Shown piece by piece: positions 4,915 through 22,256 of a stretch of DNA of 22,301 nt. This stretch comes from a virus. Position 1 is the stretch's first letter. Each line of letters begins with the position of its first letter. The translations under genes and the position numbers were made by a program. The notes below the pieces were generated by a model that saw only the letters and a list, made by a program, of their open reading frames with translations, was not told the origin of the DNA and did not search any database. The stretch spans positions 1 through 22,301 of the IMG/VR virus record IMGVR_UViG_3300046652_000054; one strand, 5' to 3'.

Positions 4915-4919
4915 GGATT

Positions 4920-5252: not shown

Positions 5253-5282
5253 GGACCAGATCAGGGAGTCGATCAGTTTTTT
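5240..5282 (-). promoter_or_regulatory. Programmed -1 ribosomal frameshift site with downstream stem-loop
   Basis: On the minus strand the end of the G gene reads ATA AAA AAC TGA, which places the heptamer A AAA AAC exactly in the X XXY YYZ phase (5276-5282) and right before the stop. A 7-base spacer follows. Then CTCCC (5264-5268) can pair with GGGAG (5240-5244) around an internal TCC/GGA pair. The -1 frame is open straight into the T frame at 4920-5252. Slippery site, spacing and stem are all seen; efficiency is unknown. Confidence 0.9.
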
Positions 5283-5683: not shown

Positions 5684-5717
5684 GCTGCATCACTCCGATT
5701 TAAGAAACGTGTTTCGA

Positions 5718-7196
5718 CTACGGTAGGAACCAGAACCGACAAATGCTCGCCGTATAAAGCAAGGTGGCATCCATAAACGCGGTCGCATTGCTGTTGATCA
5801 TGATGTCGGCGTTCTTACCAGATACCGTCGGCGCACCAGTGCCCAATTTGATCGACGGGAAATCGAACATATAGGCTTCCTTGTTGCCGTCATTGCGGCC
5901 AAGCGCACAGTTGAACGAGGTAAGTGTATTGCTGGTTACCTTGTCGAGAACGGTCTTGCTGCCAAAATAAAAGTTTAATCCCAAGGTGACACTAAATTCC
6001 CCATTACCCGTTCCGACGATTCCAGTAACGCCGACCGCAAGTTGTCGACGAAGGTTATTGTTGAATGCCCAATTAGCACTCATCAGATAGTTCGGCGTGG
6101 CAACGGCAGTGCCATCGAACGCAATCGCATCGACACTCGATGCCGTATTGAGCACGAAGTTGGTTGGAGACGCGACATCAGTTGCCCCAGACGCGCGCGC
6201 CGTGGTAACCGTGGAATCCGAACCGATATAATCGACCGATAGAGTGGCAATCTTCTGCGCATCTGCCGTGACGGTCATTTTATCGATGGTCTGGCCACGC
6301 AGATATTCATAAGATACCGGACTGTGATCGAGATATTGCCGCTCGAAAGTGGCAGAGCGCAGTGTCGATCCATTGATCAGAAAGTCAGATGTAAATATCT
6401 GCACCGTTTTGGAACTGCCAGCATCCGCCACCCAGGTCGAGGGCACACGGCCAAACGAAAGGCGAGTTGCGGTGATCGCCGAGATGCGACAGAACCCGCC
6501 GACACCGGCCGTGGCAAAGGCATTGCCTACCGCCGCGCCGCCGACATAAATCCATTGCCCGACAGCTAGGCCGAGCGTGGTGAAATTAAGTGCCGTCGAG
6601 GTAATAGCGTTGCCGCCAGCGGTCACCGCAACCAGATCGCCCGCGGCTCCCTGGAAGCCGACCGTGCGTACACTGGCGCCGACTGGAATCGCGGCACCTT
6701 CAATTGTGAAACTCAATGCAGGAAAGACAATCGTTGTACCGGTCGATGATGCGACGCGCGACAGAATATTATTGTTCGCAGCCGTGGTGAATCCTGATGT
6801 GTAGGCCAGCATACCGGCCACAAATGGCGTACCGAGTGGCGTAACGACAGTCAACGTCGTCGCCGTCACATCGCTGATTTCGGTATCGCTGGTGGCAACA
6901 GTAATCAGGGGAGAGTTGGACCATGTTCCCTGCAGAGCCTCTTCGAATTCATCGTCATAACTTTTGAACGATAATTCGCCTGCGACCGCCCCTCCAGCCT
7001 GATAACCCAAAAATATCAGATCGGTTACCTGCCGATCGGATCGTATTTCTGACGAGACGACCGTCTGCGGGGCAGAACTCAGTCCGCTCGAAGTCTCGCG
7101 CTTGGTATTGAATACCGGATTGGTCGGAATGACACCGAAGGTTGCTTCGCGAGCGCGCGAAAGTTTGACGCGATTGGTGGATTGTAGTGCGGTCAT
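5718..7196 (-). CDS. Tail tube protein (Phage_tube_2-like)
   Basis: This 492-residue protein starts MTALQSTNRVKLSRAREATF, the usual opening of the large tail-tube proteins that carry extra beta-sandwich domains. It contains repeated beta-rich inserts (about residues 100-170 and 185-260, with V-G-Q-W-I-Y-V-G-G and SAITATRLSF). A later section (ERQYLDHSPVSYEYLRGQT) is typical of tube subunits. It lies between the tail terminator (7215-7643) and the chaperone pair, exactly where lambda gpV lies. A clear AGGAG sits 9 bases upstream of the ATG. Tube subunits stack as hexameric rings along the tape measure. Confidence 0.88.
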   Translation of the reverse strand: MTALQSTNRVKLSRAREATFGVIPTNPVFNTKRETSSGLSSAPQTVVSSEIRSDRQVTDLIFLGYQAGGAVAGELSFKSYDDEFEEALQGTWSNSPLITVATSDTEISDVTATTLTVVTPLGTPFVAGMLAYTSGFTTAANNNILSRVASSTGTTIVFPALSFTIEGAAIPVGASVRTVGFQGAAGDLVAVTAGGNAITSTALNFTTLGLAVGQWIYVGGAAVGNAFATAGVGGFCRISAITATRLSFGRVPSTWVADAGSSKTVQIFTSDFLINGSTLRSATFERQYLDHSPVSYEYLRGQTIDKMTVTADAQKIATLSVDYIGSDSTVTTARASGATDVASPTNFVLNTASSVDAIAFDGTAVATPNYLMSANWAFNNNLRRQLAVGVTGIVGTGNGEFSVTLGLNFYFGSKTVLDKVTSNTLTSFNCALGRNDGNKEAYMFDFPSIKLGTGAPTVSGKNADIMINSNATAFMDATLLYTASICRFWFLP

Positions 7197-9108: not shown

Positions 9109-9510
9109 TCAGCGCACAGAGGCTCGCACGTCGAGCGTGGTGTTCACATATACCCCGGTCGTCGTCACCACGGCACGCAGCATGTTGCCAAATATACCGT
9201 CAAGTACACCTTCGCTCGATAGCGCGGCGTAAGTTGTCACCGCCTTCGAAAGCAGACCCTCCAGATTGCAGACCGCCTTGCGCGATGACGTGGTAAAATC
9301 AAACCGCGCGATGTCGTACCAGATGGTCCCACCATCGAGGGCCGTTTGTACCGTTACCGAGGCGGTCGTTCCGCCACTGCCATAACCAAAGTCGGCAACA
9401 AGCGTGATTGCAGCAAGTCCGTCGAGTCCATCGATCGTGGTCTGCACTTGGCTCGTGAGTGCGGCCGTCAAATTCAAGGCAGCCAGCGTATAGCAAGAAG
9501 AATTATCCAT
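9109..9510 (-). CDS. Beta-rich phage structural protein of unknown function
   Basis: This 133-residue protein begins MDNSSCYTLAALNLTAALTS and is rich in Thr, Val and Gly. It has alternating strands (VTVQTALDGGTIWYDIARFD) of the kind seen in small virion decoration or tail proteins that read like fibronectin or jellyroll sandwiches. The ATG is about 12 bases after a GAGGG, and the gene lies 21 bases behind the repeat-rich lectin gene. The context, between the fibre genes and the neck genes, suggests a virion component. I recognise no specific family. Confidence 0.7.
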   Translation of the reverse strand: MDNSSCYTLAALNLTAALTSQVQTTIDGLDGLAAITLVADFGYGSGGTTASVTVQTALDGGTIWYDIARFDFTTSSRKAVCNLEGLLSKAVTTYAALSSEGVLDGIFGNMLRAVVTTTGVYVNTTLDVRASVR

Positions 9511-9531
9511 GATGGATATCGCCCTCGATAA

Positions 9532-12198
9532 TCATTGCGTTCGTCTGCGCGGAGTAACCTTGACATTACCTAAACGGCGATTCAGAAATCCTTCACCGCC
9601 AAGTGAGGCATGTTGAGGCTCATCTTTAATGGTGGCGCCATCACCAATATGGCGAACGAGAAATCCGCCGCTGCCCATTAAGGCGTGCTGTGGTTCCGTT
9701 TCCGATATAACGCCGGTCTCTAGATGCCGACCAAAAAATCCTTCAAGCAAAGAACCGTGAACCAGCAACTCAATAGAATCGTCAACTATCGGAGCAAAAG
9801 TAAACACTCGCGCGTCGGCCGCCAGGTTACCGAAGGCGGTCATTTCAGACTGAGCCGCAAGCAGCGCAGCCACTTGCGCGGCGAGTACGCCCTCGCCTAC
9901 AAGAATTCCGAATCCGCTGAATATCTGAAGCGTTATGGCATCGAGTGTGCCAGAGGCCATCAGACCGGCACGCGCCGCCAGGGACGCCTTTGTCGTGACC
10001 GAAAGAGAGCCGACGCCAGAGAGCGATGCGGAAGTAGCCATCAACATCGAGACGGAAGCATTAAGCGTTCCGACGCCGATTAGTGATTCGCTACTATCAA
10101 GCAATATCCGAGTAACTGCGGCAGTTAGAGCGCCGGCCCCGATCAGTTGTGCAGAGCCTTGCCATGCGGTTGTTGCGCCCGCAATCTGCGCTAAGGCCGC
10201 AAGACTGCCGGCCCCAGATAATAGGGCCACCGCGACCATGCGCTGTATGGCTGCAGACGCGAGCTGACCGTTACCTGTCAGCAGAGCCGTAGCTTGCGGA
10301 GTGTGCGAGGCACTAGCCGAAACGTAGCTGGTGCCAGCCAACACCGCCGCAGATAACATGGCCTGGGTGGCAGAGGCCGCCAGTCCGCCTATTCCGGAAA
10401 GCGCCGCGCTTATCTGCGCATTTAGAAGAACCGAGACAGATAGTGTACCAGAACCAACCAGCAGAGAAGTAGCTTGCCAAGCCGTTACTGCGCCCGCGAT
10501 CTGCGCAAATGCCGTTAGATTTCCAGCGCCCGACAACAGCGCCGCCGTAACCATGCGCTGAACTTCGGCAACTACAACCGAACCGTTGCCTGTTAGAACC
10601 GCCGTGCCCTGCGGGGTATGTATGGCGTTGGCCAAGACAGTGCCAGAAGCGGCGAGCAGCGCCGCAGCGGACATGGCCTGAGTAGCGGAGGCCGAAAGGT
10701 TACTGGTTCCTGCTAACAGCGCATTCGTTTGAGTATTGAGCAGAACTGAAGCGATTAGTGAACCGGACCCGGTCAGAACCGCAGATGCGGTTAGAAGGGT
10801 ATTCGCAGTTGTCGCCAGCACACCAGCGGCAGTAAACAGCGCCGTGGCTTGCGGCGTATGAGTAGCCGTTGCAAAGAATGCGCCAGCACCAACCAGAACA
10901 ACGGACGCAGCCAGAAGATCGGTCGCTGTTGCTGCCAGCGTTCCTGCACCAGCGAGCAACGACGTGGCCTGCGGCGTATGTGCGGCACTGGCCGAAACAT
11001 TTCCCGCGCCAGCCAACAGCGCTGCAGATAACATGAACTGCGAGGTAGAGGCCGAGAGCGTTCCAGAACCAGCCAACAGTGTATTCGTCTGCTCATTGAG
11101 CAGAGCATAAGCGATTAGCGAACCGGATCCGGTGAGAACAGCAGAGGCAGCCAGTAGTTCAGTTGCTGTTGCCGTCAGCGCGCCAACACCAGCCAGCAGA
11201 GCTGTAGCTTGCGGCGTGTGGGTGGCCGAGGCAGAGAGAGTACCAGAACCAACTAGCAGCGACGTAGCTTGCCAAGCCGTTACTGCGACTTGGACTGTGG
11301 CGTTGGCAGCTAAAGCTCCCGCGCCAGCAAGCAGAGACGTGGCTTGTGGTGTATGTGTGACAGAGGCAGAGAGCACACCAGCGCCGGATAAGACCGTGCT
11401 GGCTGCGAGCAACTGCACGGTAGACGCAACCAACGAGCCAGCGCCAGCGAGCTGAGACGTGACCTGAGGAGTGTGCGTAACAGAAGCAGAAAGAACGCCA
11501 GAACCAGCAGCAACCGCAGTGCCTGTCCATGAAACGCTGATACCACCTATCCATCCGACGCTCGATACGGCCTCGTCGTCGAAATAAAGGAAGGGTGTGT
11601 CGTTAACGGAGACGTCGGCAAAGTGAAGGAGGTATGCGTATGGATTGCCAGAATTCGTGTTTTGGTTGCCGACTAAGGAAACGACCGTAGAACCGTCGAC
11701 CTTGACCTGGATCGTTCCGACGGTGGAGCTGCGAAGAACGTGCCATTCGATCAGGTGCCATGCGTTCGCCGTCATCGCACCGGTGTTTCCCACAACGGTG
11801 GAATCGCCGGGGTCATAGACGTTAACTGAACCGTCGGTCTCTAGTTTAAAATTTATAGAGGTTCCACCACCGGTGTCTCTGACAGCAAATATGTACTTGA
11901 CTTCCGCCGCAGGATTTGCCGTGAACTGGAAGTAAAACCGGCCCCAGAGTTCGTTGGAACCCCACGAGATGCCAGTAAGTTGGATCTGGTGATTGGTGCT
12001 ACTAAGACCGAGTTTGGCGGCGTAGGTGCCGGAGTTAACCGGGCTGGTGACAATGCTCGCGGCGGAGCCGTTGGTGGTCCAGACCGCAGGAAAGGTGCCT
12101 CCGTTCTCAAATCCGTCAGTAAAATTTATGGTCTGGGTCGTCAAGTCGACCAGCGTACCGGTCAGACTGGTTCCTGCTGCGCCTGAACGAGTTGCCAT
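9532..12198 (-). CDS. Large repeat-rich fibre/adhesin with an N-terminal lectin-like domain
   Basis: Residues 15-225 of this 888-residue protein form a concanavalin A-like jellyroll: after the GFENGGTFPAVW opening come WGRFYFQFTANPAAEVKYIF, WHLIEWHVLRSSTVGTIQVK and a FLYFDDEAVSSVGWIGG end. Polysaccharide-binding and lyase-type phage domains look like this. Residues about 228-801 are about 28 repeats of 20 residues. The C-terminal 85 residues hold three H-x-S/M-L ... G-F-L-x-R units. No transmembrane or signal segment is seen. It follows the fibre-like pair (1-base gap) and precedes small structural genes, so it is probably a virion adhesin. The order is the reverse of the gene at 1-1862 (lectin first, then repeats). 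Codon spacing is regular over the whole length. Confidence 0.88.
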   Translation of the reverse strand: MATRSGAAGTSLTGTLVDLTTQTINFTDGFENGGTFPAVWTTNGSAASIVTSPVNSGTYAAKLGLSSTNHQIQLTGISWGSNELWGRFYFQFTANPAAEVKYIFAVRDTGGGTSINFKLETDGSVNVYDPGDSTVVGNTGAMTANAWHLIEWHVLRSSTVGTIQVKVDGSTVVSLVGNQNTNSGNPYAYLLHFADVSVNDTPFLYFDDEAVSSVGWIGGISVSWTGTAVAAGSGVLSASVTHTPQVTSQLAGAGSLVASTVQLLAASTVLSGAGVLSASVTHTPQATSLLAGAGALAANATVQVAVTAWQATSLLVGSGTLSASATHTPQATALLAGVGALTATATELLAASAVLTGSGSLIAYALLNEQTNTLLAGSGTLSASTSQFMLSAALLAGAGNVSASAAHTPQATSLLAGAGTLAATATDLLAASVVLVGAGAFFATATHTPQATALFTAAGVLATTANTLLTASAVLTGSGSLIASVLLNTQTNALLAGTSNLSASATQAMSAAALLAASGTVLANAIHTPQGTAVLTGNGSVVVAEVQRMVTAALLSGAGNLTAFAQIAGAVTAWQATSLLVGSGTLSVSVLLNAQISAALSGIGGLAASATQAMLSAAVLAGTSYVSASASHTPQATALLTGNGQLASAAIQRMVAVALLSGAGSLAALAQIAGATTAWQGSAQLIGAGALTAAVTRILLDSSESLIGVGTLNASVSMLMATSASLSGVGSLSVTTKASLAARAGLMASGTLDAITLQIFSGFGILVGEGVLAAQVAALLAAQSEMTAFGNLAADARVFTFAPIVDDSIELLVHGSLLEGFFGRHLETGVISETEPQHALMGSGGFLVRHIGDGATIKDEPQHASLGGEGFLNRRLGNVKVTPRRRTQ
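9568..9762 (-). repeat. Three-unit C-terminal repeat (H-x-x-L-x-G-x-G-F-L-x-R) in the lectin-repeat protein
   Basis: About residues 813-877 of the gene at 9532-12198 contain HGSLLEGFFGRHLETG, HALMGSGGFLVRHIGDG and HASLGGEGFLNRRLGN. The first two units end in EPQ right before the His of the next. Each unit is 24-25 residues. This differs from the 20-residue repeat upstream and may be a separate trimerisation or docking motif. Confidence 0.75.
9790..11517 (-). repeat. About 28 in-frame repeats of 60 bp (20 residues), three units with a 5-residue insert
   Basis: Units such as SLLAGAGTLAATATDLLAAS and AVLTGSGSLIASVLLNTQTN repeat at exactly 20 residues. Three units are 25 residues, each carrying (V/T)TAWQ: numbers 4, 17 and 22 from the N-terminus. 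HTPQ(A/V/G)T closes many units. Higher-order copies exist: units 17-18 and 22-23 resemble each other, as do 7 and 13. That is the trace of unequal recombination. The last four units are the most diverged. Confidence 0.92.
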
Positions 12199-12199
12199 G

Positions 12200-12592
12200 T
12201 CAGCCCAACGTGATCTTTAAGGCACCGGCAGCAATTGAGATTATATCCGCAGATGCGCAGCCAATGCTCGCCGTCACGGTTCCGAAGGCCAATCTGTTCC
12301 CAGCTGCTGCAGCATCATAGAGATTCCAACCGCGCACGGTCGCTATCGCCGTTGCTGTTCCTCCACTGATGGCGGCGACATTAGTGACAGAACCCTGCGG
12401 AGAGTTCATCGGTGCAAAAGTCACCGTCTGGCGCGCACCGACACCACTCACGCTAAACGGCCCATCTGACGCGCCATTAACATTTGGGCTTCCGGTCGCC
12501 CAACTTATAAACCGCCCAGCGGGCCGAGTGGCGGCAGCACCGCCAAGCATCCAATCGAGCGTTTGCTTTGCTAGATATTGGCTAAGCGGCAC
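12200..12592 (-). CDS. Tail fibre-like protein, second tandem copy
   Basis: I start at GTG 12592, 7 bases after the stop of the paralog upstream. The GTG is preceded by GGGG and lines up with the paralog's N-terminus, whereas the longer frame runs into it out of family. The 130-residue product reads VPLSQYLAKQTLDWMLGG, then an AV/VTFAP stretch, a W-N-L-Y-D-A segment with ...RLAFGTVTASIG, and ends GALKITLG. The paralog has the same opening (YLVKQTLDWMLGG) and ending (GALAITLG). The layout fits phage tail-fibre proteins with the aiyDA...G-x-l-x-y-g-x-l and final aG-x-l-x-i-x-l pattern. It stops 1 base before the lectin-repeat gene. Confidence 0.75.
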   Translation of the reverse strand: MPLSQYLAKQTLDWMLGGAAATRPAGRFISWATGSPNVNGASDGPFSVSGVGARQTVTFAPMNSPQGSVTNVAAISGGTATAIATVRGWNLYDAAAAGNRLAFGTVTASIGCASADIISIAAGALKITLG

Positions 12593-12599
12593 CCTGGCG

Positions 12600-12998
12600 T
12601 TACCCCAACGTGATGGCCAGAGCCCCAGCAGCCAGCACCAATGAGTCACCGATACCGTAAGTGCGGGCGGTCTGCAGCGTTCCATACCAAAGCATATTTG
12701 AGGATGCTATTGGACTGCCGTCCCAGAGGTGAATGCCGAGGGCTGACCCACCGGACGAGAACGGCCCAAATGTCATCGCGGCCGTGTTCGATGCACTTCC
12801 GGTTGGTGAGGCAGCGGCACCGAACAGGGCCGTCAACCTGGAGAAGTATCCCTGTGCGGCGGCGAGTTCTGACCCACTCACACTGGTCGGTGTGCCGGCT
12901 GCCAAGCCTGCCCAACGGTTTGCCGGTTGCGTTCCAGTGGCACCACCAAGCATCCAGTCGAGGGTTTGCTTGACGAGATATGCGCTGACACTAGCCAT
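12600..12998 (-). CDS. Tail fibre-like protein, first tandem copy
   Basis: This 132-residue protein starts MASVSAYLVKQTLDWMLGG and ends LAAGALAITLG. In between it has a Gly/Ser-rich head, an AAMTFGPF strand and IHLWDGSPIASSNMLWYGTL. This is the beta-sandwich pattern of a phage tail-fibre family. It is a tandem duplicate of 12200-12592. The start is firm: AGGAG lies 6 bases upstream and inside the last codons of the DUF5672-type gene, with which it overlaps by 8 bases. It is probably a virion-surface or fibre subunit. Confidence 0.78.
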   Translation of the reverse strand: MASVSAYLVKQTLDWMLGGATGTQPANRWAGLAAGTPTSVSGSELAAAQGYFSRLTALFGAAASPTGSASNTAAMTFGPFSSGGSALGIHLWDGSPIASSNMLWYGTLQTARTYGIGDSLVLAAGALAITLG

Positions 12999-13776
12999 GA
13001 ATAGCTCCTTTTAAGGTGGGTTGATCTTTCAGTAACTCTTTTACAATCTCAGGATTCTTTTGACAGAACGCCTTCATGAACTGGCTGTCTGGATTTGATA
13101 TGTAGGGCGACCGCAGCGCGATCCCCATGCGCTCAATCAAACGATCATGGTCGAGAACTTCGTTCCAGTTGAACATCCCGTGAAAACCGAAGTGCTTCGA
13201 TGTCGGGCTCGGGCGACAACATTCGAATGCGAAGTCATGGGCTACCTTCTCCGGCGCCCACAAAAATCCAGCGGTTTCTAGCTTTGGCCGATACTTGCGA
13301 CAGAGCAGATCGTCATCAACAGCAGTGTCGCATGGGAACTGATCGCGGCGATTGCAGATATATCGTTTTAGCCTCGTGCTGATGATTGAGAAGCCGCCGT
13401 TACCTACGTTCTTGCCGTCCTTGTACCACCAGGGAGCGCCCACATAGTCATAATCCATGAACTCGTCGCGCCACATTGACGTGTCCCAAATCCACGAGTC
13501 CCACTGAATGTTGAGAGTCTGGCGCGTTCGCAGAAGCGGGGGCACGTCGAACCACCAGGAGCGCGACCATCCCAGCTTGTCGGGCCAGTCGGGGACGATG
13601 TGAAAGCGCGGCTCACAGTGATGTGTCAGCGGTGAAAACTCTAGCGGTCGGTCGGTGACAATCAGCACCTCGCCAAACTCAGCCACGCGCAAGCAATCCT
13701 CAACAGCCATGCGGGCGAGATCATGCTCGCGTGTCTCTACCATCACCAGCGTTACATCAGGCAGTTTCAGTTTCAT
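12991..13776 (-). CDS. DUF5672-like glycosyltransferase-type protein
   Basis: The 261-residue product (start at ATG 13776) begins MKLKLPDVTLVMVETREHDL. It has the DUF5672 pattern: NIQWDSWIWDT, then YDYVGAPWW, VGNGGFSIISTRL, a FLWAPEKVAHDFAFE segment and HFGFHGMFNW. The family has a GT-A-like fold and occurs in surface-glycan loci. An upstream ATG at 13824 is possible but would extend into the overlapping small gene without a ribosome binding site. The substrate cannot be told. It overlaps the tail-fibre gene downstream by 8 bases. Confidence 0.85.
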   Translation of the reverse strand: MKLKLPDVTLVMVETREHDLARMAVEDCLRVAEFGEVLIVTDRPLEFSPLTHHCEPRFHIVPDWPDKLGWSRSWWFDVPPLLRTRQTLNIQWDSWIWDTSMWRDEFMDYDYVGAPWWYKDGKNVGNGGFSIISTRLKRYICNRRDQFPCDTAVDDDLLCRKYRPKLETAGFLWAPEKVAHDFAFECCRPSPTSKHFGFHGMFNWNEVLDHDRLIERMGIALRSPYISNPDSQFMKAFCQKNPEIVKELLKDQPTLKGAIHG

Positions 13777-13930
13777 TCTCACGTTCCACAACTTTCGCAG
13801 CGAGTTTGATCGCGTCAGCGTCATCCGTAACGTTAAAGATAATCTTGCCGGCCGCGTCTGCTACGGCTGTGCGCGATCCTGGTCGCTGACCACCAAACTC
13901 ATTGATAAGCCTAAGTGGTGTTTTAAGCAT
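13757..13930 (-). CDS. 57-residue protein, overlapping small gene
   Basis: A 57-codon frame starts at ATG 13930 (inside the last codons of the GT9 gene, ATGCTTAA overlap) and ends TGA at 13757. It translates to MLKTPLRLINEFGGQRPGSR followed by TAVADAAGKIIFNVTDDADA and an IKLAAKVV helix. The sequence is typical of small phage proteins, fills the gap between 13923 and 13776 exactly, and runs 20 bases into the DUF5672-type gene start. Translation is likely by coupling, since I see no Shine-Dalgarno. No function is known to me. Confidence 0.7.
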   Translation of the reverse strand: MLKTPLRLINEFGGQRPGSRTAVADAAGKIIFNVTDDADAIKLAAKVVERENETETA

Positions 13931-14990
13931 GGGCGCGTAACGGTACTACGTTATCAGCCACGTTCCAAAGTCTCTCGACATTCTCCATGATCGTATCGAC
14001 CGAGATATCGCTAATGCAGGCGGCAGCGTTTCCTCCGTCCTTGTTCGGCGTGCAGGTCGAGATGTCTGAATGGAGACGATGACACGGCCAGCATGGCACG
14101 TTGTTACGGTCGGCGCGCAGCGTCGTGGTGTTAATCCAATGCTTCGTAATGTTTTCCGCGCTCGCGTGCGACACCATAACGATCTTTGGCATTGACTCCA
14201 TCGCTGCGGCCCACGCCACTCCCGTATCTGGAGTGATTACCAAGTCCGAAGCTAAAACTTGCGTTAGGCTGCGGCGAATGGGCCAATCTTGATGTCCACC
14301 AGAATCCGCGCCATCAGGAGTCAGCGCCAGATGCAATCCCTTCAAACTGCTGTTGGTTCTTTTGACATCGGACTCGACCTGCTTGGCATATTCAAACTGG
14401 CGTCCGCCACCACCGACCATCACGACTGGGATGTCGAATTCCTTGATGATGCGGCAAATCGCCATCGCGGCGTAGGGATAAACCTTATCGATCCGTGAAC
14501 CTGAGAGAACCCAGGTTAAATACCGACCACCGATTGTCTCTCGTGTCTTGGCTGCCCGATCTTTTTCGTCGTCAGTTGGGAAAAACAGCGGACCAAATTC
14601 GTATGGCACGCCGACTATGTCATGCACCGTTTCAAGATAACTTCCGGCGCATAGCTTGCGGCGATATTCCGGTGACCACCAGAATGCGGTCTGGTCTGGC
14701 GTGAGCGCATGTCGTACTTCGCATGTATGCGAAAGATGTGCAAAGATGTCGTATTCGTTGGCCCGCGAAACAAACCACTTCTGCCATTCTGCCCCGCCAG
14801 GAATATCCTTCTCGCCCTTGATGCTCAGTTTATCGACGTAAGGGTTATTGAGAAACACCACATGCGAAAGTTCGGAAGTGATAACCTCCGTCATGTAGCC
14901 CATGCGTTTGAGCGGACGCAGCGTTGATGCGGCAATCAGATTGTCTCCGATTCCGCCCAAACGGGCAACCGCGGCCCAGCGATTGCTCAT
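13923..14990 (-). CDS. GT9-type (heptosyltransferase-like) glycosyltransferase
   Basis: This 355-residue protein carries the GT-B / GT9 core. The N-terminal glycine loop is ARLGGIGDNLIAASTLRPLK (residues 9-28). The middle linker holds GGRYLTWVLSGSRIDKVYP. The C-terminal nucleotide-sugar segment ASDLVITPDTGVAWAAAMES has the GT9 hallmark D-T-G. The late part has a Cys-rich tail (CWPCHRLHSDISTCTP). GT9 enzymes move heptose-type sugars onto lipid or protein acceptors; the acceptor here is unknown. It starts in a TGA/ATG overlap (ATGA) with the small gene upstream (14987-15211). Similar enzymes are known from phage genomes. Confidence 0.85.
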   Translation of the reverse strand: MSNRWAAVARLGGIGDNLIAASTLRPLKRMGYMTEVITSELSHVVFLNNPYVDKLSIKGEKDIPGGAEWQKWFVSRANEYDIFAHLSHTCEVRHALTPDQTAFWWSPEYRRKLCAGSYLETVHDIVGVPYEFGPLFFPTDDEKDRAAKTRETIGGRYLTWVLSGSRIDKVYPYAAMAICRIIKEFDIPVVMVGGGGRQFEYAKQVESDVKRTNSSLKGLHLALTPDGADSGGHQDWPIRRSLTQVLASDLVITPDTGVAWAAAMESMPKIVMVSHASAENITKHWINTTTLRADRNNVPCWPCHRLHSDISTCTPNKDGGNAAACISDISVDTIMENVERLWNVADNVVPLRAHA

Positions 14991-15211
14991 TGCACCAATT
15001 TCCCATCGCGCAGAATGTGAATCTTGCTTTCGTCAATTTTTAGTTCACCCATGCCACCGAGATCGGGCTGTTTTTTGACGCGCACAACATGATAAATGGC
15101 GACCGGCTTGACACCCGGTACGATCTGCCAACCGTCGGCGACCATCTTAGAAACCTCAGTCGGCAAATTATCATCGACTGGAATAACCTTGATCTCGTGT
15201 TCAATTTCCAT
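14987..15211 (-). CDS. Small conserved phage protein of unknown function
   Basis: The 74-residue protein reads MEIEHEIKVIPVDDNLPTEV then SKMVADGWQIVPGVKPVAIY, a compact alpha-beta pattern that recurs in small phage genes. It overlaps the GT9 start by 4 bases. It begins 10 bases past the downstream copy of the 43-bp direct repeat, so it probably once followed the connector gene directly (see the cassette entry). No Shine-Dalgarno is evident. Confidence 0.7.
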   Translation of the reverse strand: MEIEHEIKVIPVDDNLPTEVSKMVADGWQIVPGVKPVAIYHVVRVKKQPDLGGMGELKIDESKIHILRDGKLVQ

Positions 15212-15220
15212 GTCAGATGC

Positions 15221-15263
15221 TCACATCCAAACGCGATAGCTTTGAAGAAGTGACTGCACGGCG
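15221..15263 (-). repeat. Downstream copy of a 43-bp direct repeat, matching the connector gene's 3' end
   Basis: 42 of 43 bases match 17830-17872, with 38 bases (15226-15263 and 17835-17872) identical. In the connector gene the sequence codes the final AVQSLLQSYRVWT and stop. At 15221-15263 it lies alone between the stop of the GH99-like gene and the start of the small gene. It is a relic without coding use in that frame. Confidence 0.95.
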
Positions 15264-15271
15264 ATAGCTCA

Positions 15272-16390
15272 TTATGTTACACTTAGGAGCGATTGCCCCT
15301 TTGTTCCTGTAGGATCACCAATTGTAGGCATCATTGCTACGCCACCTTCGGCACACTCGGACCAGGAATAGACCAAGACGGTATGTGCGTCGCAAATCGC
15401 GGGGTTATTGGCGAAGTTGCTACCATGTTGAAAGTGAGTGGTAAGTTCAATCGGCGTCGGTTCAACAACTGAATTTGAAATAGGTGTCCAAAAACTAGGG
15501 GGCAGTTCATTTAAGGGAACTGGATTATATCCAACGTTGCAAGTCGGGACATAAGGAGAGAAGGCCGCCGCATCCGTTACCCAATAACCCTCAACACTTG
15601 CGGTCATCGCGGCGAAGGTTCCGTTAAGCCCTGACGGGATTGGACCAATATAGCGGGAATAGGCATCGGCACCGAGGGCAGTCGGCACCGTTCCGCTGCT
15701 TACCCCGCCAGTGATGACGACTAAATATGGATTACCAAAGCCAGCACCTTGCACAAGCGAGCGCAGAGCGTCTAGTGCTGCTTTGTAGTTTGCGTTACTG
15801 CCGCCCCAATAAGATGTGATATTGGCGGTGGTGTAATAGATGTAGATGAGCGGTCTATTACCCTTCACAAACATATACCAAGGGCTTTGAATATATGTCA
15901 GCGTGAGGGCGATCTGTGTGGAATAGTTACCTGTAGTGCCAAGTGTTCCGGTACTTTCCATCAGGCATAAGCGGGGTCGAGAAGGCTGGGTGCTGCTCAT
16001 ATAGAAATCAAGAGCAACATTCAATGTCGGCTGCACAGCCGGAGCGTAATGGTCAAAGACCCAGTAATCTAAACCGAATTTATTAGCCGCAAGGATTTCA
16101 TTGTCGAACGTAGCCTGCGATGCCGAAGCCCATGAGATTGTATTACTTCCTACCGTTGCATGAACCGGAGCGCGGAATTGCCAAGCATTAGGTGCAAGCG
16201 TACCAGGATTAACAGCCAGTTCGTATGGAACTGATCCGTTGACCATTGAGTACCAAGCATCCCAACGGATCGCGCCGAACTTCGGTCTATTGCGGACCCG
16301 CCGAAATCTTGATCCGCCAAAGCTCTGAGCGAGAGCCTTGTCGCCGATCAATGCAACCGATGCTGCCGTAAACAGTCGTCGAGTTATCAT
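15272..16390 (-). CDS. Exported GH99-like (glycan-acting) protein with a Tat-type signal
   Basis: The start is ATG 16390 (a TTG at 16396 is in frame). The 372-residue product begins MITRRLFTAASVALIGDKAL, with TRRLF matching the twin-arginine motif and a signal-peptidase-like ALAQ end. The mature part opens FGAIRWDAWYSM, then FDNEILAANKFGLDYWVFDH, a PLIYIYY strand, and near the C-terminus SWSECAEGGVAMMPTIGD. That acid-rich W-x-E-x-x-E-G-G plus P-T pattern is the GH99-like/WbsX-type signature, whose members act on mannose-type or capsule glycans. It starts 2 bases after the stop of the glycine-rich gene. Enzymatic activity is not established. Confidence 0.75.
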   Translation of the reverse strand: MITRRLFTAASVALIGDKALAQSFGGSRFRRVRNRPKFGAIRWDAWYSMVNGSVPYELAVNPGTLAPNAWQFRAPVHATVGSNTISWASASQATFDNEILAANKFGLDYWVFDHYAPAVQPTLNVALDFYMSSTQPSRPRLCLMESTGTLGTTGNYSTQIALTLTYIQSPWYMFVKGNRPLIYIYYTTANITSYWGGSNANYKAALDALRSLVQGAGFGNPYLVVITGGVSSGTVPTALGADAYSRYIGPIPSGLNGTFAAMTASVEGYWVTDAAAFSPYVPTCNVGYNPVPLNELPPSFWTPISNSVVEPTPIELTTHFQHGSNFANNPAICDAHTVLVYSWSECAEGGVAMMPTIGDPTGTKGQSLLSVT

Positions 16391-16392
16391 TT

Positions 16393-17256
16393 TCAATAAT
16401 GTATTACGAAGAAACCCTGACCACCGTTGCCCCCAGTGCCTCCGGTGGAGGTGCCGCCACCACCACCCCCTGCACCAAAACCAGGAGCAGTTATTGTGTT
16501 TCCTACCGCTCCCGCCGCTCCACCATTTCCGCCGTGCCCAAAGAAACTACTTCCACCACCGCCACCACTGCCATTACCGCCCCCACCTGCACCATCCACT
16601 GTGCTGCCGCCATGAGCAGGACCATATATGACGCTATTCCCACCTGTACCTCCTGCGGACGCCGTTGCACCGCCGCCACCACCACCCGCTCCTGCGACAG
16701 TACCCCAGCCGCGTGATCCGGCGAATGAAGCACCGGTTGCCGCAGATGCCCCTCCTGCTGAGCCAGCAATGCCACCGCCATTACCACCGATTCCGCCTGT
16801 CCCTGCTGCGCCTACAATGCCTGGATTTCCCATAGTTAAAGATGGAAAAGTACCGAGAACATCCCCAGTCAATGTGGAAGCCGTTGTTACCGACCCCGAA
16901 GAACCGACGTTTCCACCGGCCCCGCCGGCTGTAACGGTTAGGGTAAGAGTTGACCCTGGCGTAACAGCAAGGGGATAACTAATGACGCAATACCCTGAAC
17001 CCCCACCCCCACCACCTGCCGTGGTGGCACTGTTCTGGCCTCCTCCACCACCTCCGCCGGGCCCGCATGCATCAACAAAAACCATTGTTACATTAGGAGG
17101 AACAATCCAAGTCTGTGCACTTGTGCTGTTAGAGCATCCCGTAACGGCGGTATTTGTGAAGCATACGCTTTGCTGCGCGTAACTCGACGGCCCAACTGTC
17201 TGTGCCGCAAGCGGCGTCGCAAGCAAGAGGGCGAAAAGTGCGATAAGTTTTTTCAT
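16393..17256 (-). CDS. Exported glycine-rich adhesin-type protein
   Basis: This 287-residue protein has a Sec-type signal MKKLIALFALLLATPLAAQ with the cut near residue 19. It then has a short N-domain with four Cys and TWIVPPNVTMVFVDACGPGG, and a long Gly tract (GGGGGGG, GGNGG, GAGGGGGG) ending GGQGFFVIHY. The tract resembles the polyglycine adhesin domain of phage tail-tip proteins (Gly_rich type). Virion adhesins usually lack a signal peptide, so its presence is odd. It sits between two other signal-peptide genes in the cassette. Repeated GGA/GGT-rich sequence makes it prone to slippage. Confidence 0.78.
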   Translation of the reverse strand: MKKLIALFALLLATPLAAQTVGPSSYAQQSVCFTNTAVTGCSNSTSAQTWIVPPNVTMVFVDACGPGGGGGGGQNSATTAGGGGGGSGYCVISYPLAVTPGSTLTLTVTAGGAGGNVGSSGSVTTASTLTGDVLGTFPSLTMGNPGIVGAAGTGGIGGNGGGIAGSAGGASAATGASFAGSRGWGTVAGAGGGGGGATASAGGTGGNSVIYGPAHGGSTVDGAGGGGNGSGGGGGSSFFGHGGNGGAAGAVGNTITAPGFGAGGGGGGTSTGGTGGNGGQGFFVIHY

Positions 17257-17257
17257 A

Positions 17258-17767
17258 TTACTGGCTCGTCACGATGTAGCCGTCACCAGCGGTGCCGGTG
17301 ATTCCGACTGCGTCTGTTAAAACAACTGGCCCGGCATTACAGGATATTGTTTGACCGGCATTAATCTGAAACGAGTTAGAAGTTGTTGCCGATCCGAGTG
17401 TGCCGAAGTAAATGTACTGCACATGCGCTCCGGTATTTTGCAGCAAACACCCTTTGCGCGTTGCAGAGGCAGCCAATGCAGCCTGAAATGTATTGGTGAC
17501 GGAAACAGTAGAATTCACTGTGGTTGTTGTTGCTGCGGTTGTTGTTCCTTGTCCCGAACTTCCCGAACATTGATAAGTCCCGGCCGCATTGTATATTGGG
17601 ACGGCTTGTCCCGACAAATTTATGCAAAGTTGTACGAAGCTTCCGACGGTATCATGTCCATTCGGGGTTGGCCAAATCATCTGCGCAAATGCTGCAGATG
17701 AAATTCCAAATGCCAAACATCCGGCAAAAATAGCGGGTGCGAATGCACGTCTCATGAGCGATCGCAT
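17258..17767 (-). CDS. Exported protein of unknown function
   Basis: This 169-residue protein starts MRSLMRRAFAPAIFAGCLAF with a hydrophobic core and an SSAAFAQ cleavage site near residue 29. The mature part is Thr/Ser/Gly-rich with a TTTAATTTTVNSTVSV tract and a short beta-rich C-domain (ATRKGCLLQNTGAHVQYIYF, then INAGQTISCN). Four cysteines are present in the mature protein and could form disulfides. GGAG lies 9 bases upstream of the ATG. I recognise no family. It opens the cassette behind the connector gene. Confidence 0.72.
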   Translation of the reverse strand: MRSLMRRAFAPAIFAGCLAFGISSAAFAQMIWPTPNGHDTVGSFVQLCINLSGQAVPIYNAAGTYQCSGSSGQGTTTAATTTTVNSTVSVTNTFQAALAASATRKGCLLQNTGAHVQYIYFGTLGSATTSNSFQINAGQTISCNAGPVVLTDAVGITGTAGDGYIVTSQ

Positions 17768-17829
17768 TTCTATATCTCCGATTGGGGCAGTGAGTCTTTA
17801 TCCGATATCAAATGGCGAAGGGACGAGGA

Positions 17830-17872
17830 TCACGTCCAAACGCGATAGCTTTGAAGAAGTGACTGCACGGCG
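17830..17872 (-). repeat. Upstream copy of the 43-bp direct repeat (inside the connector gene's 3' end)
   Basis: This is the coding copy: it encodes the connector's last residues, AVQSLLQSYRVWT, and its stop. The other copy is at 15221-15263. See that entry for the match. Confidence 0.95.
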
Positions 17873-18561
17873 CCATTGAGGGCAGTTTCAGCTCCACCGC
17901 CCATTGTCCAGCCTTTATCGGAAACTCCAGGAATCGTGTCTCGGCTTAGAAAAAGATTGCGCGCCGTCAGAGATCGAAAATGGCTCGCCTGCAACGTGAT
18001 CCCCATTCTAATGTCTTCTGGAACGTCAGAACCTTTATCTCCATAGCCGGCGATGAACCGAACCACGACCGAACCAGGCGTCAACGCGGACGATGGCCAA
18101 CTCGCGCCAGCCACCAGAGATAAATCGGATGGCGCATCTTTGTTTACGATGTAGGTCGCCGGATCGAGTGTCTGTGGCGCACCATTCACATCGGTATAGG
18201 TGACACTCACTACTTGCTGCAGCGGCGGCAGTGGAATCGCGATGCCGTGACGTTTCTTCGAACTATACGGATACGTCCCCCACAATTCCTGTGGGTACGG
18301 ATACCAGACTTCCTGCGGATAAAACCCTTTTTCCTGGTAGTAATAATTCGATGTCGGGAAGCGATCGAGCACCAAATCCCAAGTCTGTGTCACCAGCGCG
18401 CGCCCGAGCCATCCATCCCTGCCGTCAATCATATTACGGGAGGCCGAGATCATCGCCTTCATTACATCGTCAGAAACTTCATCACCGATATTGAGCCTCG
18501 CCTTCGCTTCCGCGGCGGTCAATGGTTCAACAGCCGGTCCGGCGACGAGATTCAGCGACAT
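17830..18561 (-). CDS. Head-tail connector protein (phiE125 gp8-like)
   Basis: This 243-residue protein starts MSLNLVAGPAVEPLTAAEAK and continues as a helical ISASRNMIDGRDGWLGRALV stretch, the usual opening of the phiE125 gp8 / gp6-type connector that docks on the portal. A beta-rich middle follows (IPLPPLQQVVSVTYTDVNG), then GSVVVRFIAGYGDKGSDVPE with a long C-terminal helix and a LLQSYRVW end. Residues 70-104 are an unusual Tyr/Pro/Trp-rich loop (YYYQEKGFYPQEVWYPYPQE). It lies 3 bases behind the GT-B-like gene. Its 3' end is the repeat used at the cassette boundary. Confidence 0.88.
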   Translation of the reverse strand: MSLNLVAGPAVEPLTAAEAKARLNIGDEVSDDVMKAMISASRNMIDGRDGWLGRALVTQTWDLVLDRFPTSNYYYQEKGFYPQEVWYPYPQELWGTYPYSSKKRHGIAIPLPPLQQVVSVTYTDVNGAPQTLDPATYIVNKDAPSDLSLVAGASWPSSALTPGSVVVRFIAGYGDKGSDVPEDIRMGITLQASHFRSLTARNLFLSRDTIPGVSDKGWTMGGGAETALNGAVQSLLQSYRVWT

Positions 18562-18564: not shown

Positions 18565-19425
18565 TCACCGCTTATTGCAGTATTTTAGGAATTTCTGGCA
18601 TTCCGCAACAATCAGATCGGCACGATCATCGCACCAGACTAAACGCTGATAGTCTGGCGAGCTCGGCAATTGCTGCCCCGGAGTTACACCGCATTGCTGA
18701 AAATAACTCTCGGTAAATACATGCAGATGGCCGGCGATCGTCGGCTTGAACATCAGAACCGGAGCATCAAGCGCAATGGCAAACCACGCCGGCCCATTTG
18801 ACACGAACAGATTGCACAATGCGGAACGATAGAGTGCGGCACGGGCCTTAAGATCGACGGCAGCCTCGACATTGATCGGAAACAGTGCAATCGGCTCGGC
18901 ACATTTGCGAGTATCGCGTACGAAAACGATGTTATAACCGAGACAGGACAGTTCTTCTGCGGCGCGGATCCATTGTGCAAAGTCACTATTTCGTTCCGGC
19001 CAATGATCGGCTTCCCGCAACGTGATGGTGATCAGTTTTTCCTTTTGTCGCGGCTCGACTAAGGGACGCAGTGGTCGACTGCCGTCCTTTAACGCCTTGA
19101 CATGAACGGCCAGGCCATAAAGTGAAACGCCAAACCCGACTGAATTAGCAACCGGCTGCGTCGGACGATCGTTCGCCACTTCAACCGTTGCGGACGGCAG
19201 CAGATGCGCCATCGGCAACGCAATCTGTTCGAGCATAAGACGTCTGACAGTTATTTCACGCGGCCACAAATTATCTCGACGAAATCCCCCCACTGGCCCA
19301 GGAAGGATAATAATATTTAGTTGACTCTCATCCCTTCTAATCCGCTCCGCTTCTATCTCACTGAGAAACGAAACGATGTCATAACTTGCCGGCGATGTCG
19401 CGAGATCATAATAAGCCGTCAGCAT
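18565..19425 (-). CDS. GT-B-like glycosyltransferase-type protein
   Basis: I start at ATG 19425, where the ATG overlaps the TGA of the GT-A-like gene upstream (AATGCTGA). An ATG at 19470 would add 15 residues that read poorly. The 286-residue product has the two-domain layout of GT-B enzymes: an N-part with IIILPGPVGGFRRDNLWP and a C-part with LITITLREADHWPERNSDFA, LGYNIVFVRDTRK and ALCNLFVSNGPAWFAIALDA. The last of these resembles the GT9-type D-T-G-x-x-x-A-A-x segment (here SNGPAW), as in the gene at 13923-14990. Acceptor and sugar are unknown. It is the last gene before the connector. Confidence 0.72.
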   Translation of the reverse strand: MLTAYYDLATSPASYDIVSFLSEIEAERIRRDESQLNIIILPGPVGGFRRDNLWPREITVRRLMLEQIALPMAHLLPSATVEVANDRPTQPVANSVGFGVSLYGLAVHVKALKDGSRPLRPLVEPRQKEKLITITLREADHWPERNSDFAQWIRAAEELSCLGYNIVFVRDTRKCAEPIALFPINVEAAVDLKARAALYRSALCNLFVSNGPAWFAIALDAPVLMFKPTIAGHLHVFTESYFQQCGVTPGQQLPSSPDYQRLVWCDDRADLIVAECQKFLKYCNKR

Positions 19426-20369
19426 TGCTGGAAATCGTCGTTTCTGGCAGCCGCCAGAATTTGCGTACATATTTCATGATCGCCGATATCAACTCGATTT
19501 CCACATATTGCAATCTGATGCTCAAACATCCATCGATGCATCGGGTTGGTGTGGCGTCGCGTCGGGAAATTCTCATCCTTATCCGACGCCCACTTAGCCA
19601 CACTACCCACGCTCATCTTGTCAGCCATGAGTGGCAAGTTTCCCCAACCTGGAACTCGGGGGGATACTTCAGCAAAGGCCGCCTCGCCTGACCCGGTTAC
19701 GATGTGAATCTCGTCGCGAGCATAGGAACTGACCAATTCATTATCGATCGTCGTTCCAAAATCGATCGAGCGATCCTTGATCAGTGAAAACGGATGCAGA
19801 TGAAACGCGCGCATCACAATATCTTCGCCGCGCCGAAAATAAATTGTAAAAGGACACGCACAATGGCCTTCATCCCAGAACCGCTCGATGACAGACGGAT
19901 GCCTATGCTGCATCGTCCAGACTAATAATTCTGACGCAGAAACACCAATCGGCGGGATATCATCGGCGACCGTACTGGTCGCCGCCATCATAATTAGCCG
20001 TTTCCCATGATTGAATTGATGCTCGGCTGCAGCAAAACATTCTATCGATGGCACCATATCCGCATTGATGAAGGCTATGCACTCTCCTTCCGCAGCTAAT
20101 TCCAATGCCTCACGGTGAGCAGCGCCAAGTGAGTGATATGGATCCCGCTCGATTACTGGTTTCTTAATCCTTATATCGGCAGCGAGATTTCCAAGCGCAT
20201 TTCTTATTTTCTCAGGCTGATCGGTCTGCACCAGGAAACGGACATTACCGCTGATACCGGGTAGAGCCGCCTTTACTCCCGGCAAGGTCACTCTACAAAA
20301 AAGATCGACGCAACGCGGTCCCCACGCCGGAATACAGATCAGCCAATCATAGTTTCGGTACGCTCTCAC
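19419..20369 (-). CDS. GT-A-like protein, second of two tandem paralogs
   Basis: A 316-residue protein starting at GTG 20369, where GTGA overlaps the stop of the paralog upstream. It has WLICIPAWGPRCVDLFCRVT, then FINADMVPSIECFAAAEHQF (a D-x-M element of the GT-A type), then GKRLIMMAATS and IYFRRGEDIVMRAFHLHPFS. The paralog upstream has the same order: WIITIPTWGQRCNDAF, FLCADMVVSVECFAFAEKRF, IYFKRGKNIVLRAFHLHPFA. Nucleotide-sugar transfer is likely by fold but unproven. It lacks the N-terminal module of its paralog. Confidence 0.75.
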   Translation of the reverse strand: MRAYRNYDWLICIPAWGPRCVDLFCRVTLPGVKAALPGISGNVRFLVQTDQPEKIRNALGNLAADIRIKKPVIERDPYHSLGAAHREALELAAEGECIAFINADMVPSIECFAAAEHQFNHGKRLIMMAATSTVADDIPPIGVSASELLVWTMQHRHPSVIERFWDEGHCACPFTIYFRRGEDIVMRAFHLHPFSLIKDRSIDFGTTIDNELVSSYARDEIHIVTGSGEAAFAEVSPRVPGWGNLPLMADKMSVGSVAKWASDKDENFPTRRHTNPMHRWMFEHQIAICGNRVDIGDHEICTQILAAARNDDFQQC

Positions 20370-21397
20370 GGCCTTGGCGATGGCAGTTGACGCAACACAT
20401 CCTCGACGATTTTAATTTCGCCACACTGGCCGGTTCCCGTGATCGTGATCGGGTTGTCGCTAAAGAACCAACGATGAACGTCGATCGTGTTTCTAGATGC
20501 CCATGCTGCGATGCTATCAACCGTGATCGGTGTCGAGCGCCCTCCGAGTATCCGACTCAATGGAGAGACTTCGGCCATTGCCATCTCATTCGCGCCCGCG
20601 ACCACATGAATCTCGGCGTGCGAATAAGACGCAGCCAGATCGTAGTCAATTGTCGCACCGGAAAATTTTAACTTGTTGTCTTTGACGGCCGCAAATGGAT
20701 GCAGATGAAACGCGCGCAGTACGATATTCTTTCCGCGCTTGAAATAAATTGCCCACGGAACGTCACCTTTACCGGTTTCCCAGAAGCAATCGACCGTGAT
20801 CGGATGCGGATGTCGCATCGTCCATGCCAAAAGATCGCGAGATTTTGCTCCGATTGGTGGTTCATCGCCAAACGTGCGCGATGAAGCCCCCATGATTATC
20901 TTCTTGCCTTGCGCAAATCGTTTTTCCGCAAAGGCAAAACATTCCACCGACACAACCATGTCGGCACAGAGAAAACAGATAAATTGGCCATCGCCAGCTA
21001 GGTTAATCGCATCAATATGCGCCGTACCCAACTTATGATGCGGCGATCGGCCAGCCGGCACCACTCTAAAAAAAACGTCCAGCCCCTCCATGGCTTTCTT
21101 GATTCGGATCGGATCATCGGTATGGATCAAAAAACGCGCGGGTACTTTCGCCAGCCTCAATGCCGCCCGCAGTGATGGCAGACCGACATTAATAAAAGCA
21201 TCGTTACAGCGCTGGCCCCAGGTCGGAATAGTGATGATCCAGCGCGGCGTCGATTCTCCTTGTTGAGAGTTGGCGTCCAGTTCGGCTAAGCCATGCAGAA
21301 CTAATTCTCTAGCCCGTGACTCGCTCGCCAAAAAGATCTGTTCCGGTTCGACGTGCCCTTCGTGCTCTGCGTTGAACCATGACCGGAGCGCTTTCAT
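20366..21397 (-). CDS. GT-A-like protein with an N-terminal KALRSWFNAE module, first of two tandem paralogs
   Basis: I start at ATG 21397 (in-frame GTGs at 21400 and 21406 are possible). Residues 1-45 (MKALRSWFNAEHEG to ARELVLHGLAEL) resemble the small protein encoded at 21917-22207, which begins MSVRMKALKAWHNAEYEG. The rest is GT-A-like: IITIPTWGQRCNDAFINVGL, FLCADMVVSVECFAFAEKRF, then IYFKRGKNIVLRAFHLHPFA and EIHVVAGANEMAMAEVSP. The product is 343 residues. The gene overlaps the Rossmann-like gene by about 89 bases. A fusion of a head-side module with a transferase is unusual. The substrate is unknown. Confidence 0.75.
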   Translation of the reverse strand: MKALRSWFNAEHEGHVEPEQIFLASESRARELVLHGLAELDANSQQGESTPRWIITIPTWGQRCNDAFINVGLPSLRAALRLAKVPARFLIHTDDPIRIKKAMEGLDVFFRVVPAGRSPHHKLGTAHIDAINLAGDGQFICFLCADMVVSVECFAFAEKRFAQGKKIIMGASSRTFGDEPPIGAKSRDLLAWTMRHPHPITVDCFWETGKGDVPWAIYFKRGKNIVLRAFHLHPFAAVKDNKLKFSGATIDYDLAASYSHAEIHVVAGANEMAMAEVSPLSRILGGRSTPITVDSIAAWASRNTIDVHRWFFSDNPITITGTGQCGEIKIVEDVLRQLPSPRP

Positions 21398-21899
21398 CAC
21401 GATCACGGTTGAGCGCCTTTTCCAAACTCATGATCGGATATGAAGTAAGAGCCGAAGACGCGCTCGCGTTGATAATCTCGACACCCATACCGACCAGTTC
21501 ACTGGCTGCCTCATCAAGAATGCGGCGCCACTTGATTACGTTATCGAGACCAGGATTACCGAGCTCCGTTCTATGCTCGCCATGCCAGTGAACGCCGTTG
21601 TCGACCCTCATATCGAAGCCGACTAGCACGATGCGGCACGCCCCGAGTTGCACCGCCAGATTGATCGCTTGAAATCCACTGTTGCCGCCGGAGCCGATAT
21701 AGCCCCGAGATGTGATGATGCGATTGCAGCCTTCGTAGTCATCGCCAGAGTTGACGCATTCGATGAATTGCAGGGCCGGATATCGTTCGCGGACTTCCCT
21801 GAAGCAAGTAAATTTGGCTCCCTCAAATTCCGGCAATCCGGCATTTAAGAACCACCACTTGCCATCGCCGGCATAGAGGGCATCGGCCCACGGTGCCAA
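21309..21899 (-). CDS. Rossmann-like phage protein of the glycan/DUF115 type (start uncertain)
   Basis: The frame from TTG 21899 codes APWADALYAGDGKWW, then RGYIGSGGNSGFQAINLAVQ, LGACRIVLVGFDM and HWHGEH. This set is known from phage proteins that resemble DUF115 / sialyltransferase-like Rossmann folds (the G-x-G-G-N-S-G-x-x-A motif and the V-G-F-D-M strand). The family's normal N-terminus lies upstream in the same frame: TVVIIASGPSAANENL, then AKVLVVNESWRLAPW (21998 to 21897). So 21899 is not the true start. No ATG, GTG or TTG exists in this frame between 21900 and the stop at 22128. The C-terminal tail past SALTSYPIMSLEKAL runs into the next gene for about 90 bases. Confidence 0.68.
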   Translation of the reverse strand: MAPWADALYAGDGKWWFLNAGLPEFEGAKFTCFREVRERYPALQFIECVNSGDDYEGCNRIITSRGYIGSGGNSGFQAINLAVQLGACRIVLVGFDMRVDNGVHWHGEHRTELGNPGLDNVIKWRRILDEAASELVGMGVEIINASASSALTSYPIMSLEKALNRDRDESAPVMVQRRARRARRTGTDLFGERVTG

Positions 21900-22022
21900 T
21901 CGCCAGCTTTCATTGACTACAAGAACTTTCGCTCGCCCCCTGATTTGCGTGAGGTTTTCATTGGCTGCGCTTGGGCCGGAGGCGATGATGACGACTGTTC
22001 GATTTTGCCAGCCTCGCCGAAT
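21900..22022 (-). CDS. N-terminal extension of the Rossmann-like protein, overlapping 21917-22207 in another frame
   Basis: Reading the frame of 21309-21899 upstream gives codons for IRRGWQNRTVVIIASGPSAA and NENLTQIRGRAKVLVVNESW, a textbook first beta-strand and glycine loop. The opposite frame is also good coding sequence for the small protein. The only unusual starts in range are ATT 22022 and ATC codons at 22046 and 22070. Alternatives are an un-annotated -1 frameshift from the small gene or an indel. I saw no slippery heptamer in the overlap. Confidence 0.6.
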
Positions 22023-22207
22023 TCTAAAGGGCGAGGTGGTGCCGATTGCACTTCCAGCTTCGGCTTCGATACCACGCGAACCGCGAGTTGACCGCGCTCC
22101 AGATCGCGCGCACGGTCTTCCGTCGCATTAAATTCCTGATTGATAATCACGGTGCCTTCATACTCAGCATTGTGCCAAGCTTTCAGGGCTTTCATTCGGA
22201 CTGACAT
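21917..22207 (-). CDS. Small head-side protein (KALKAW module)
   Basis: I start at ATG 22207 because AGGAGA lies 6 bases upstream. A longer ATG frame from 22255 would read through the terminator hairpin. The 96-residue product MSVRMKALKAWHNAEYEGTV has an Asp/Glu/Arg-rich helix (ATEDRARDLERGQLAV) and a disordered Ser/Pro tail with a basic end (SPPAQAQPMKTSRKSGGERK). Such proteins commonly lie next to the capsid gene in related phages. It overlaps the Rossmann-like coding signal in a -1 frame. Its N-terminal module recurs in 20366-21397. Confidence 0.8.
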   Translation of the reverse strand: MSVRMKALKAWHNAEYEGTVIINQEFNATEDRARDLERGQLAVRVVSKPKLEVQSAPPRPLEFGEAGKIEQSSSSPPAQAQPMKTSRKSGGERKFL

Positions 22208-22219
22208 ATCTTTCTCCTG

Positions 22220-22252
22220 AAAAATGCTCGGCGGCATATCGCCGCCGAGCAT
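22220..22252 (-). terminator. Rho-independent terminator
   Basis: Minus-strand sequence ATGCTCGGCGGC pairs perfectly with GCCGCCGAGCAT over 12 bp around a 5-base loop (GATAT), followed by a T-run (22220-22223). It sits between a likely gene end (stop at 22257-22259) and the AGGAGA of the small gene at 22207. It should lower transcription from an upstream head gene into this run. Confidence 0.9.
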
Positions 22253-22256
22253 CATT

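Follow-up and report, generated by a model that had tools for sequence, protein, structure and literature searches.

Phage genomes are mosaics, and the order in which their parts were joined is usually erased. The window analysed here, i.e., the whole stretch of 22,301 nucleotides at positions 1 to 22,301 of the IMG/VR virus record IMGVR_UViG_3300046652_000054, carries the last 43 bases of a head-tail connector gene twice, with three genes between the copies, raising the question of how a second connector end came to lie within a head-tail operon. The repeat is most likely a real and informative recombination scar that is ordinary in kind, and not the sign of a self-moving element. As a core-gene stub of 43 bases lying between two cargo modules of different history, it suggests which of these was acquired first and shows where the most recent join has one of its ends.

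The 43-base direct repeat

The main genes of the window are all located on the minus strand. Among them, the connector gene (17830-18561) encodes a protein of 243 amino acids (aa) matching the head-tail adaptor family phrog_442 (E = 2e-25). Its last 43 bases (17830-17872, copy A) recur on the same strand at 15221-15263 (copy B) as a stub of the connector 3' end, identical at 42 of 43 positions; the single mismatch, A at 15225 and G at 17834, is followed by 38 identical bases, confirming the repeat as given in a preliminary description of this DNA. Exact 38-mer pairs are expected by chance only ~3e-15 times in a 22.3-kb sequence, and as a BLAST self-hit of the window the repeat has an E-value of 2e-15. 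When the flanks are included, the longest extension is 48 bp at 94%. One border coincides exactly with the connector stop codon TGA, beyond which the copies continue into unrelated sequence, and the other lies at an arbitrary position within the connector open reading frame (ORF). Read in the connector frame, copy B is preceded by a TGA stop just upstream with no start codon in between, and its own stop codon lies 9 bases ahead of a 74-aa gene. The last codon is ACG (T) in copy A and ATG (M) in copy B, and the ATG ending of copy B is also that of the relative L004, which ends ...CGCGTTTGGATGTAA, whereas the ACG ending of copy A differs from it. In addition, a 9-base word, AGCTATCGC, at 15261-15269 runs across the start of copy B and is found again 29 bases on within this copy, at 15232-15240; the pair may reflect the way in which the join arose.

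Another IMG/VR contig, 3300048797_000169 (L003), contains the two copies together with their flanks and shares 99.99% identity with the window over 10.6 kb, making misassembly of a single record unlikely. This contig extends further upstream and carries terminase, portal, protease and major capsid genes. When 61 loci (0.88 Mb, window included) were compared with themselves, we recognised no other solitary gene-end repeat like this one; the hits examined closely were those of L012, and these fall in a repetitive fibre-type gene. In L012, a relative, positions 4119-7022 between portal and protease form another cargo site of the head operon, made up of small genes of fibre-like type and one highly repetitive gene.

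Cargo sites in the head-tail operon

In the window, glycosyltransferase-like genes, named by sequence alone with no family match, are followed by the connector, a cargo region, a 133-aa gene (9109-9510, minus strand) and further small genes, including a 130-aa core gene that has a related gene in most relatives. Behind these small genes come a tail-completion-like protein, the tail terminator and tail proteins. The connectors of the relatives L004-L006 are 77-79% identical to that of the window. Some relatives have no cargo at the site: in L005, L006 and L015, the connector is directly followed by a homologue of the 133-aa gene (71% identity in L005/L006, 53% in L015), and in L023 by a homologue of the 130-aa gene. 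In two other relatives, the same place is filled by other genes, comprising 3.7 kb in L091 and 13.5 kb in L092. The stub also draws attention to the site behind the connector as one at which these phages acquire cargo of various kinds, among it unusual exported proteins.

The cargo region of the window spans 8.3 kb (9511-17829), and the cassette bounded by the repeat makes up the upstream third only. The preliminary view that the repeat bounds the interruption of the operon consequently holds for the upstream part, while the interruption itself is larger, reaching from 9511 to 17829. The repeat was absent from the five connector relatives tested, including the two with other genes in this place, and the further cassettes bounded by the same 38 bp that the preliminary description suggested looking for were not found among them. 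Searching genome contigs with the connector profile gave 97 pattern matches, none of them a relative. Applied to 397 genomes from the order to which the Methylobacterium contig L026 belongs, the profile found distant relatives only (best E = 1e-29), which were left out of the repeat analysis.

A second variable cargo region is located at 18565-22255, where glycosyltransferase-like genes lie between the major capsid gene and the connector, and its content varies among relatives. Here, an N-terminal segment of ~40 residues of a small post-capsid protein (21917-22255) recurs at the start of a 346-aa protein (20366-21406), and the same segment repetition is seen in L005/L006 (L005 2367-4373).

The three-gene cassette

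The three genes between the copies, encoding proteins of 169 aa (17258-17767), 287 aa (16393-17256) and 374 aa (15272-16396), are all real ORFs on the minus strand, and their placement outside the head-tail core by the preliminary description was borne out, as none matches a head-tail core family in Pfam or PHROGs. A crude signal-peptide screen of 27 window ORFs flagged exactly these three, with Sec-type signals in the 169-aa and 287-aa proteins and a twin-arginine-like signal (TRRLF) in the 374-aa protein. Scanning the cassette with Pfam, PHROGs and NCBIfam returned only a glycine-rich domain (PF21722, Pfam E = 8e-9) and weak tail-protein matches, both in the 287-aa protein, and neither a recombinase nor an endonuclease. 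The GC content at fourfold-degenerate sites is 0.43 in the cassette against 0.61 in the rest of the window (p = 4e-14), ranging per gene from 0.39 to 0.46 compared to 0.54-0.78 for the other window genes, and is the lowest among all three-gene stretches. Moreover, the three genes are missing from every connector relative examined, of which four run from the connector straight into a core gene and two hold other cargo. Both the composition shift and the absence from relatives support the three genes being a foreign insertion.

Sequences related to parts of the cassette are found in other phages. The C-terminal 78 aa of the 169-aa protein have an 87% identical counterpart in a gene of another phage (L095/L096); the best PHROG families of that phage's portal, terminase and protease differ from those of the window phage. 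At the nucleotide level, window positions 17189-17533 match L095 9962-10309 with 77% identity over 348 bp, extending from the last part of the 169-aa gene into the signal peptide encoded by the gene after it; inside this signal peptide the match breaks off, and the mature part is different. The edge of this match presents the signal-peptide region as an exchange boundary. A relative of the 374-aa protein was found in 1 of 385 genomes of the class, with 35% identity over 330 aa. This relative (L093 694-2571) is a domain of a 625-aa phage protein, the other part of which matches phrog_13532, and its gene lies just before a tail sheath gene. No match to annotated phages was obtained for the cassette proteins or the 74-aa protein, and searching viral contigs with the 74-aa and 374-aa genes returned the same lineage only.

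The 374-aa protein gave no Pfam, PHROG, NCBIfam or significant PDB match, and a fold prediction from its one sequence was uninformative (pLDDT 29.7). It contains a motif, SWSECAEGG (NELAEGG in the relative), which we take to recall glycoside hydrolases of the GH71/GH99 type, and the protein possibly contains a glycoside-hydrolase-like domain. It is plausible that the putative role of the cassette proteins, being exported and fibre- or enzyme-like, is to act on glycans of the host surface. The cassette genes follow the direction of the operon, and a scan covering the sigma-70 consensus type found no excess of promoter- or terminator-like sites over shuffled sequences. A 23-base inverted repeat within the cassette (15346-15368 and 17386-17408) was set aside, as it lies inside two coding regions, partly in the SWSECAEGG segment of the 374-aa protein; by a hand estimate, its 16-base exact core is expected ~0.06 times per window.

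The module downstream of copy B

Copy B forms the seam between the cassette and a second set of genes, here called module 2, all encoded on the minus strand. The first is the 74-aa gene (14987-15211), which is 50.7% identical to a gene in L098-L100, followed by a 355-aa protein (13923-14990) resembling GT9/heptosyltransferases, a weak naming based on a sub-threshold match to TIGR02193 (E = 0.035). Next are a 277-aa DUF5672 protein (12991-13824; PF18922, E = 1e-13), two gp80/fibre-type genes of 132 and 161 aa (12200-12998; the 132-aa protein matches PF23140 with E = 1e-18) with homologues in L098-L114, and an 888-aa repetitive fibre-like protein with internal repeats (9532-12198). The 355-aa protein has relatives with 48-71% identity in 17 other viral contigs, and a DUF5672 homologue stands behind this gene in most of the other phages. 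In L098-L100, module 2 recurs in order, with the 74-aa relative likewise directly ahead of the 355-aa homologue (51% for the 74-aa, ~71% for the 355-aa, 62% for the DUF5672 and 75% for the gp80 protein) and some extra genes between, and in L098, L101 and L102 a repetitive protein like the 888-aa one follows gp80. L101-L114 hold parts of module 2, and wherever their small genes were aligned, all were a different small gene. The genes after copy B form a module separate from the cassette, travelling as a unit in otherwise different phages.

Module 2 is also found joined to a connector with no cassette in between. In L105/L107 and L106, a connector homologue is followed 25-27 bases past its stop by a small gene, a 355-aa homologue, DUF5672 and gp80; further downstream, L106 also has homologues of two core genes, those of 133 aa and 130 aa. 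The connector homologues of L105/L107 and L106 were hit by the profile with E-values of 3e-64 and 2e-11, respectively, the L105 protein being itself a row of that profile; compared directly, it is 32% identical to the window connector (E = 1e-17). Since the small gene that adjoins the connector in L105-L107 lacks homology to the 74-aa gene, this arrangement is analogous to, and not identical with, the pre-insertion site that would be expected. Hence, the anticipated connector leading directly into the gene at 14987-15211 was not seen in the same lineage but has an equivalent, with a different small gene, in these three loci. Since such direct junctions exist, copy B can be read as the site of an older junction between connector and module 2. 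In the lineage of the window, the empty junction is predicted to consist of the connector stop, then directly GCATCTGACATG, and searches of viral contigs found neither a donor nor a pre-insertion genome of this lineage. Loss of the cassette by recombination between the copies is possible, yet it would not restore a compact head-tail operon as first proposed, as the separate 5.7-kb module 2 (9532-15211) would remain.

Origin of the repeat

We consider it probable, at about 0.68, that the repeat is a scar of recombination in which the cassette entered by one homologous and one illegitimate join and left the displaced connector tail behind as a stub. In the ancestor, the connector would have been directly followed by module 2, with its 74-aa gene and glycosyltransferase-like gene, and the incoming DNA would have comprised a closely related connector end and the three-gene cassette of exported proteins. 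One join would have formed by homology within the connector gene; the far join, behind the 374-aa gene, would have formed with no real homology, 43 bases ahead of the stop of the resident connector. The connector would thereby be kept whole, the last 43 bases of the resident gene would become copy B, between the cassette and module 2, and retaining this stub would keep the start region of the 74-aa gene. Such a process would work like homology-facilitated illegitimate recombination, and relaxed phage recombination could account for the homologous join.

On one side of the insert, there is homology to the recipient, as the connector is intact and its end agrees with the stub at 42 of 43 bases; on the far side, the connector match stops at the start of copy B. 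A displaced remnant is present, namely copy B, and a pre-insertion arrangement occurs elsewhere, in L105/L107 and L106, with a non-homologous small gene. As in insertions of cargo or moron genes, the inserted genes are missing from relatives at the same site and deviate in composition. A repeat that ends exactly at the stop, with unrelated sequence beyond, fits two connector-bearing genomes that differed only past the gene, and the L004-like ATG of copy B is compatible with this copy being the resident connector end. A single mismatch in 43 bases does not separate a second parent from a local duplication; the two-parent event, its polarity and its enzymes are inferred.

A local duplication is the main alternative. 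Unequal crossing-over could have duplicated the DNA in tandem from a point 43 bases ahead of the connector stop, with the second cassette copy later replaced by module 2. The near-identity of the copies suits a recent local event, and slippage is hinted at by the 9-base word, which occurs twice at the join at a distance of 29 bases; however, this route is unlikely, as it requires a second event with a breakpoint exactly at the stop codon of the stub, and other phages join module 2 to connectors with no cassette at all. A role in regulation, in which copy B was kept, e.g., to give the 74-aa gene its context for translation initiation or to act as an RNA element, is quite improbable. While only 9 bases separate copy B from the start codon, and a possible weak ribosome-binding GTGAG is present in the region of its stop, copy B folds no better than shuffled sequence (z = -0.49), promoter- and terminator-like sites are not in excess by the sigma-70 consensus scan, a start site does not require 43 coding bases, and the small genes of L106 and L107 have other leaders. 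Finally, fusion of two related phages at a common sequence during assembly is hardly credible: such IMG/VR contigs are metagenome assemblies, and assemblers fail at repeats, yet two contigs agree over both copies, a 43-base repeat is shorter than a typical read, and the copies can be told apart by one base and by their flanks.

Some integrative elements rebuild the 3' end of their target gene, leaving a direct repeat of that end at both borders. Likewise, the cassette might have come with a connector 3' end of its own that served for attachment, and a recombinase provided in trans might have integrated it so that the gene was restored. A whole gene followed by a cassette and a displaced 3' end is the layout left by such integration, with the repeat corresponding to the gene's 3' end at both borders, and copy B does resemble an older end. 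Unlike these elements, however, the cassette is located inside an operon of virion genes, no recombinase was recognised by Pfam, PHROGs or NCBIfam in the window proteins that were scanned, and the window contains no tRNA or known structured RNA element. As the stub also folds at the level of shuffled sequence and the five connector relatives, including the two that have other cargo there, offer no second example of the repeat, we regard site-specific integration as very unlikely. Of the two origins initially proposed, a site-specific insertion or a duplication trapping new genes, what stands is a foreign insertion with the second copy as its boundary; its site specificity is not supported, given the missing recombinase and recurrence.

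Comparison with known systems

Displaced 3' ends, or 'orphan' ends, have been described with this geometry in a study of Vibrio cholerae T6SS loci, which puts forward homology-facilitated illegitimate recombination as a putative mechanism and refers to a like proposal for Rhs loci (PMC5361080). As in these loci, a module would have entered the window lineage through conserved upstream homology and pushed the old 3' end downstream as a remnant; in contrast to them, the anchor is a phage connector whose product is unchanged, the swapped part follows the gene, and the remnant is only 43 bases long. Homology-facilitated illegitimate recombination itself is a mechanism in transformation and conjugation, by which bacterial chromosomes take up linear DNA (PMC3240628). 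The likeness lies in foreign DNA being inserted by one homologous and one illegitimate join, whereas the present case concerns phage genomes, in which the process is reconstructed rather than observed. For phages, relaxed homologous recombination has been argued to be the commoner route of mosaicism (PMC3945230, De Paepe et al.). Similarly, cargo modules are swapped here between conserved flanking genes, but a clean homologous exchange would leave no stub, and the stub would mark a non-homologous join.

Exported proteins near the connector

It could be speculated that, in this phage group, recombination anchored in the connector 3' end repeatedly stacks sets of Sec/Tat-exported, fibre- or enzyme-like proteins at the junction behind this gene. 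Such a docking site would form a transferable system for remodelling the host surface or the use of receptors, although we regard this general role as doubtful. Export of proteins encoded in a virion region is unusual. By the crude screen, genes with Sec-/Tat-type signal peptides cluster by the connector in L004 (11633-16695), L092, L091 (6073-6486) and L015 (8068-8938), and such genes are also found among structural genes in L095 (9728-12645).
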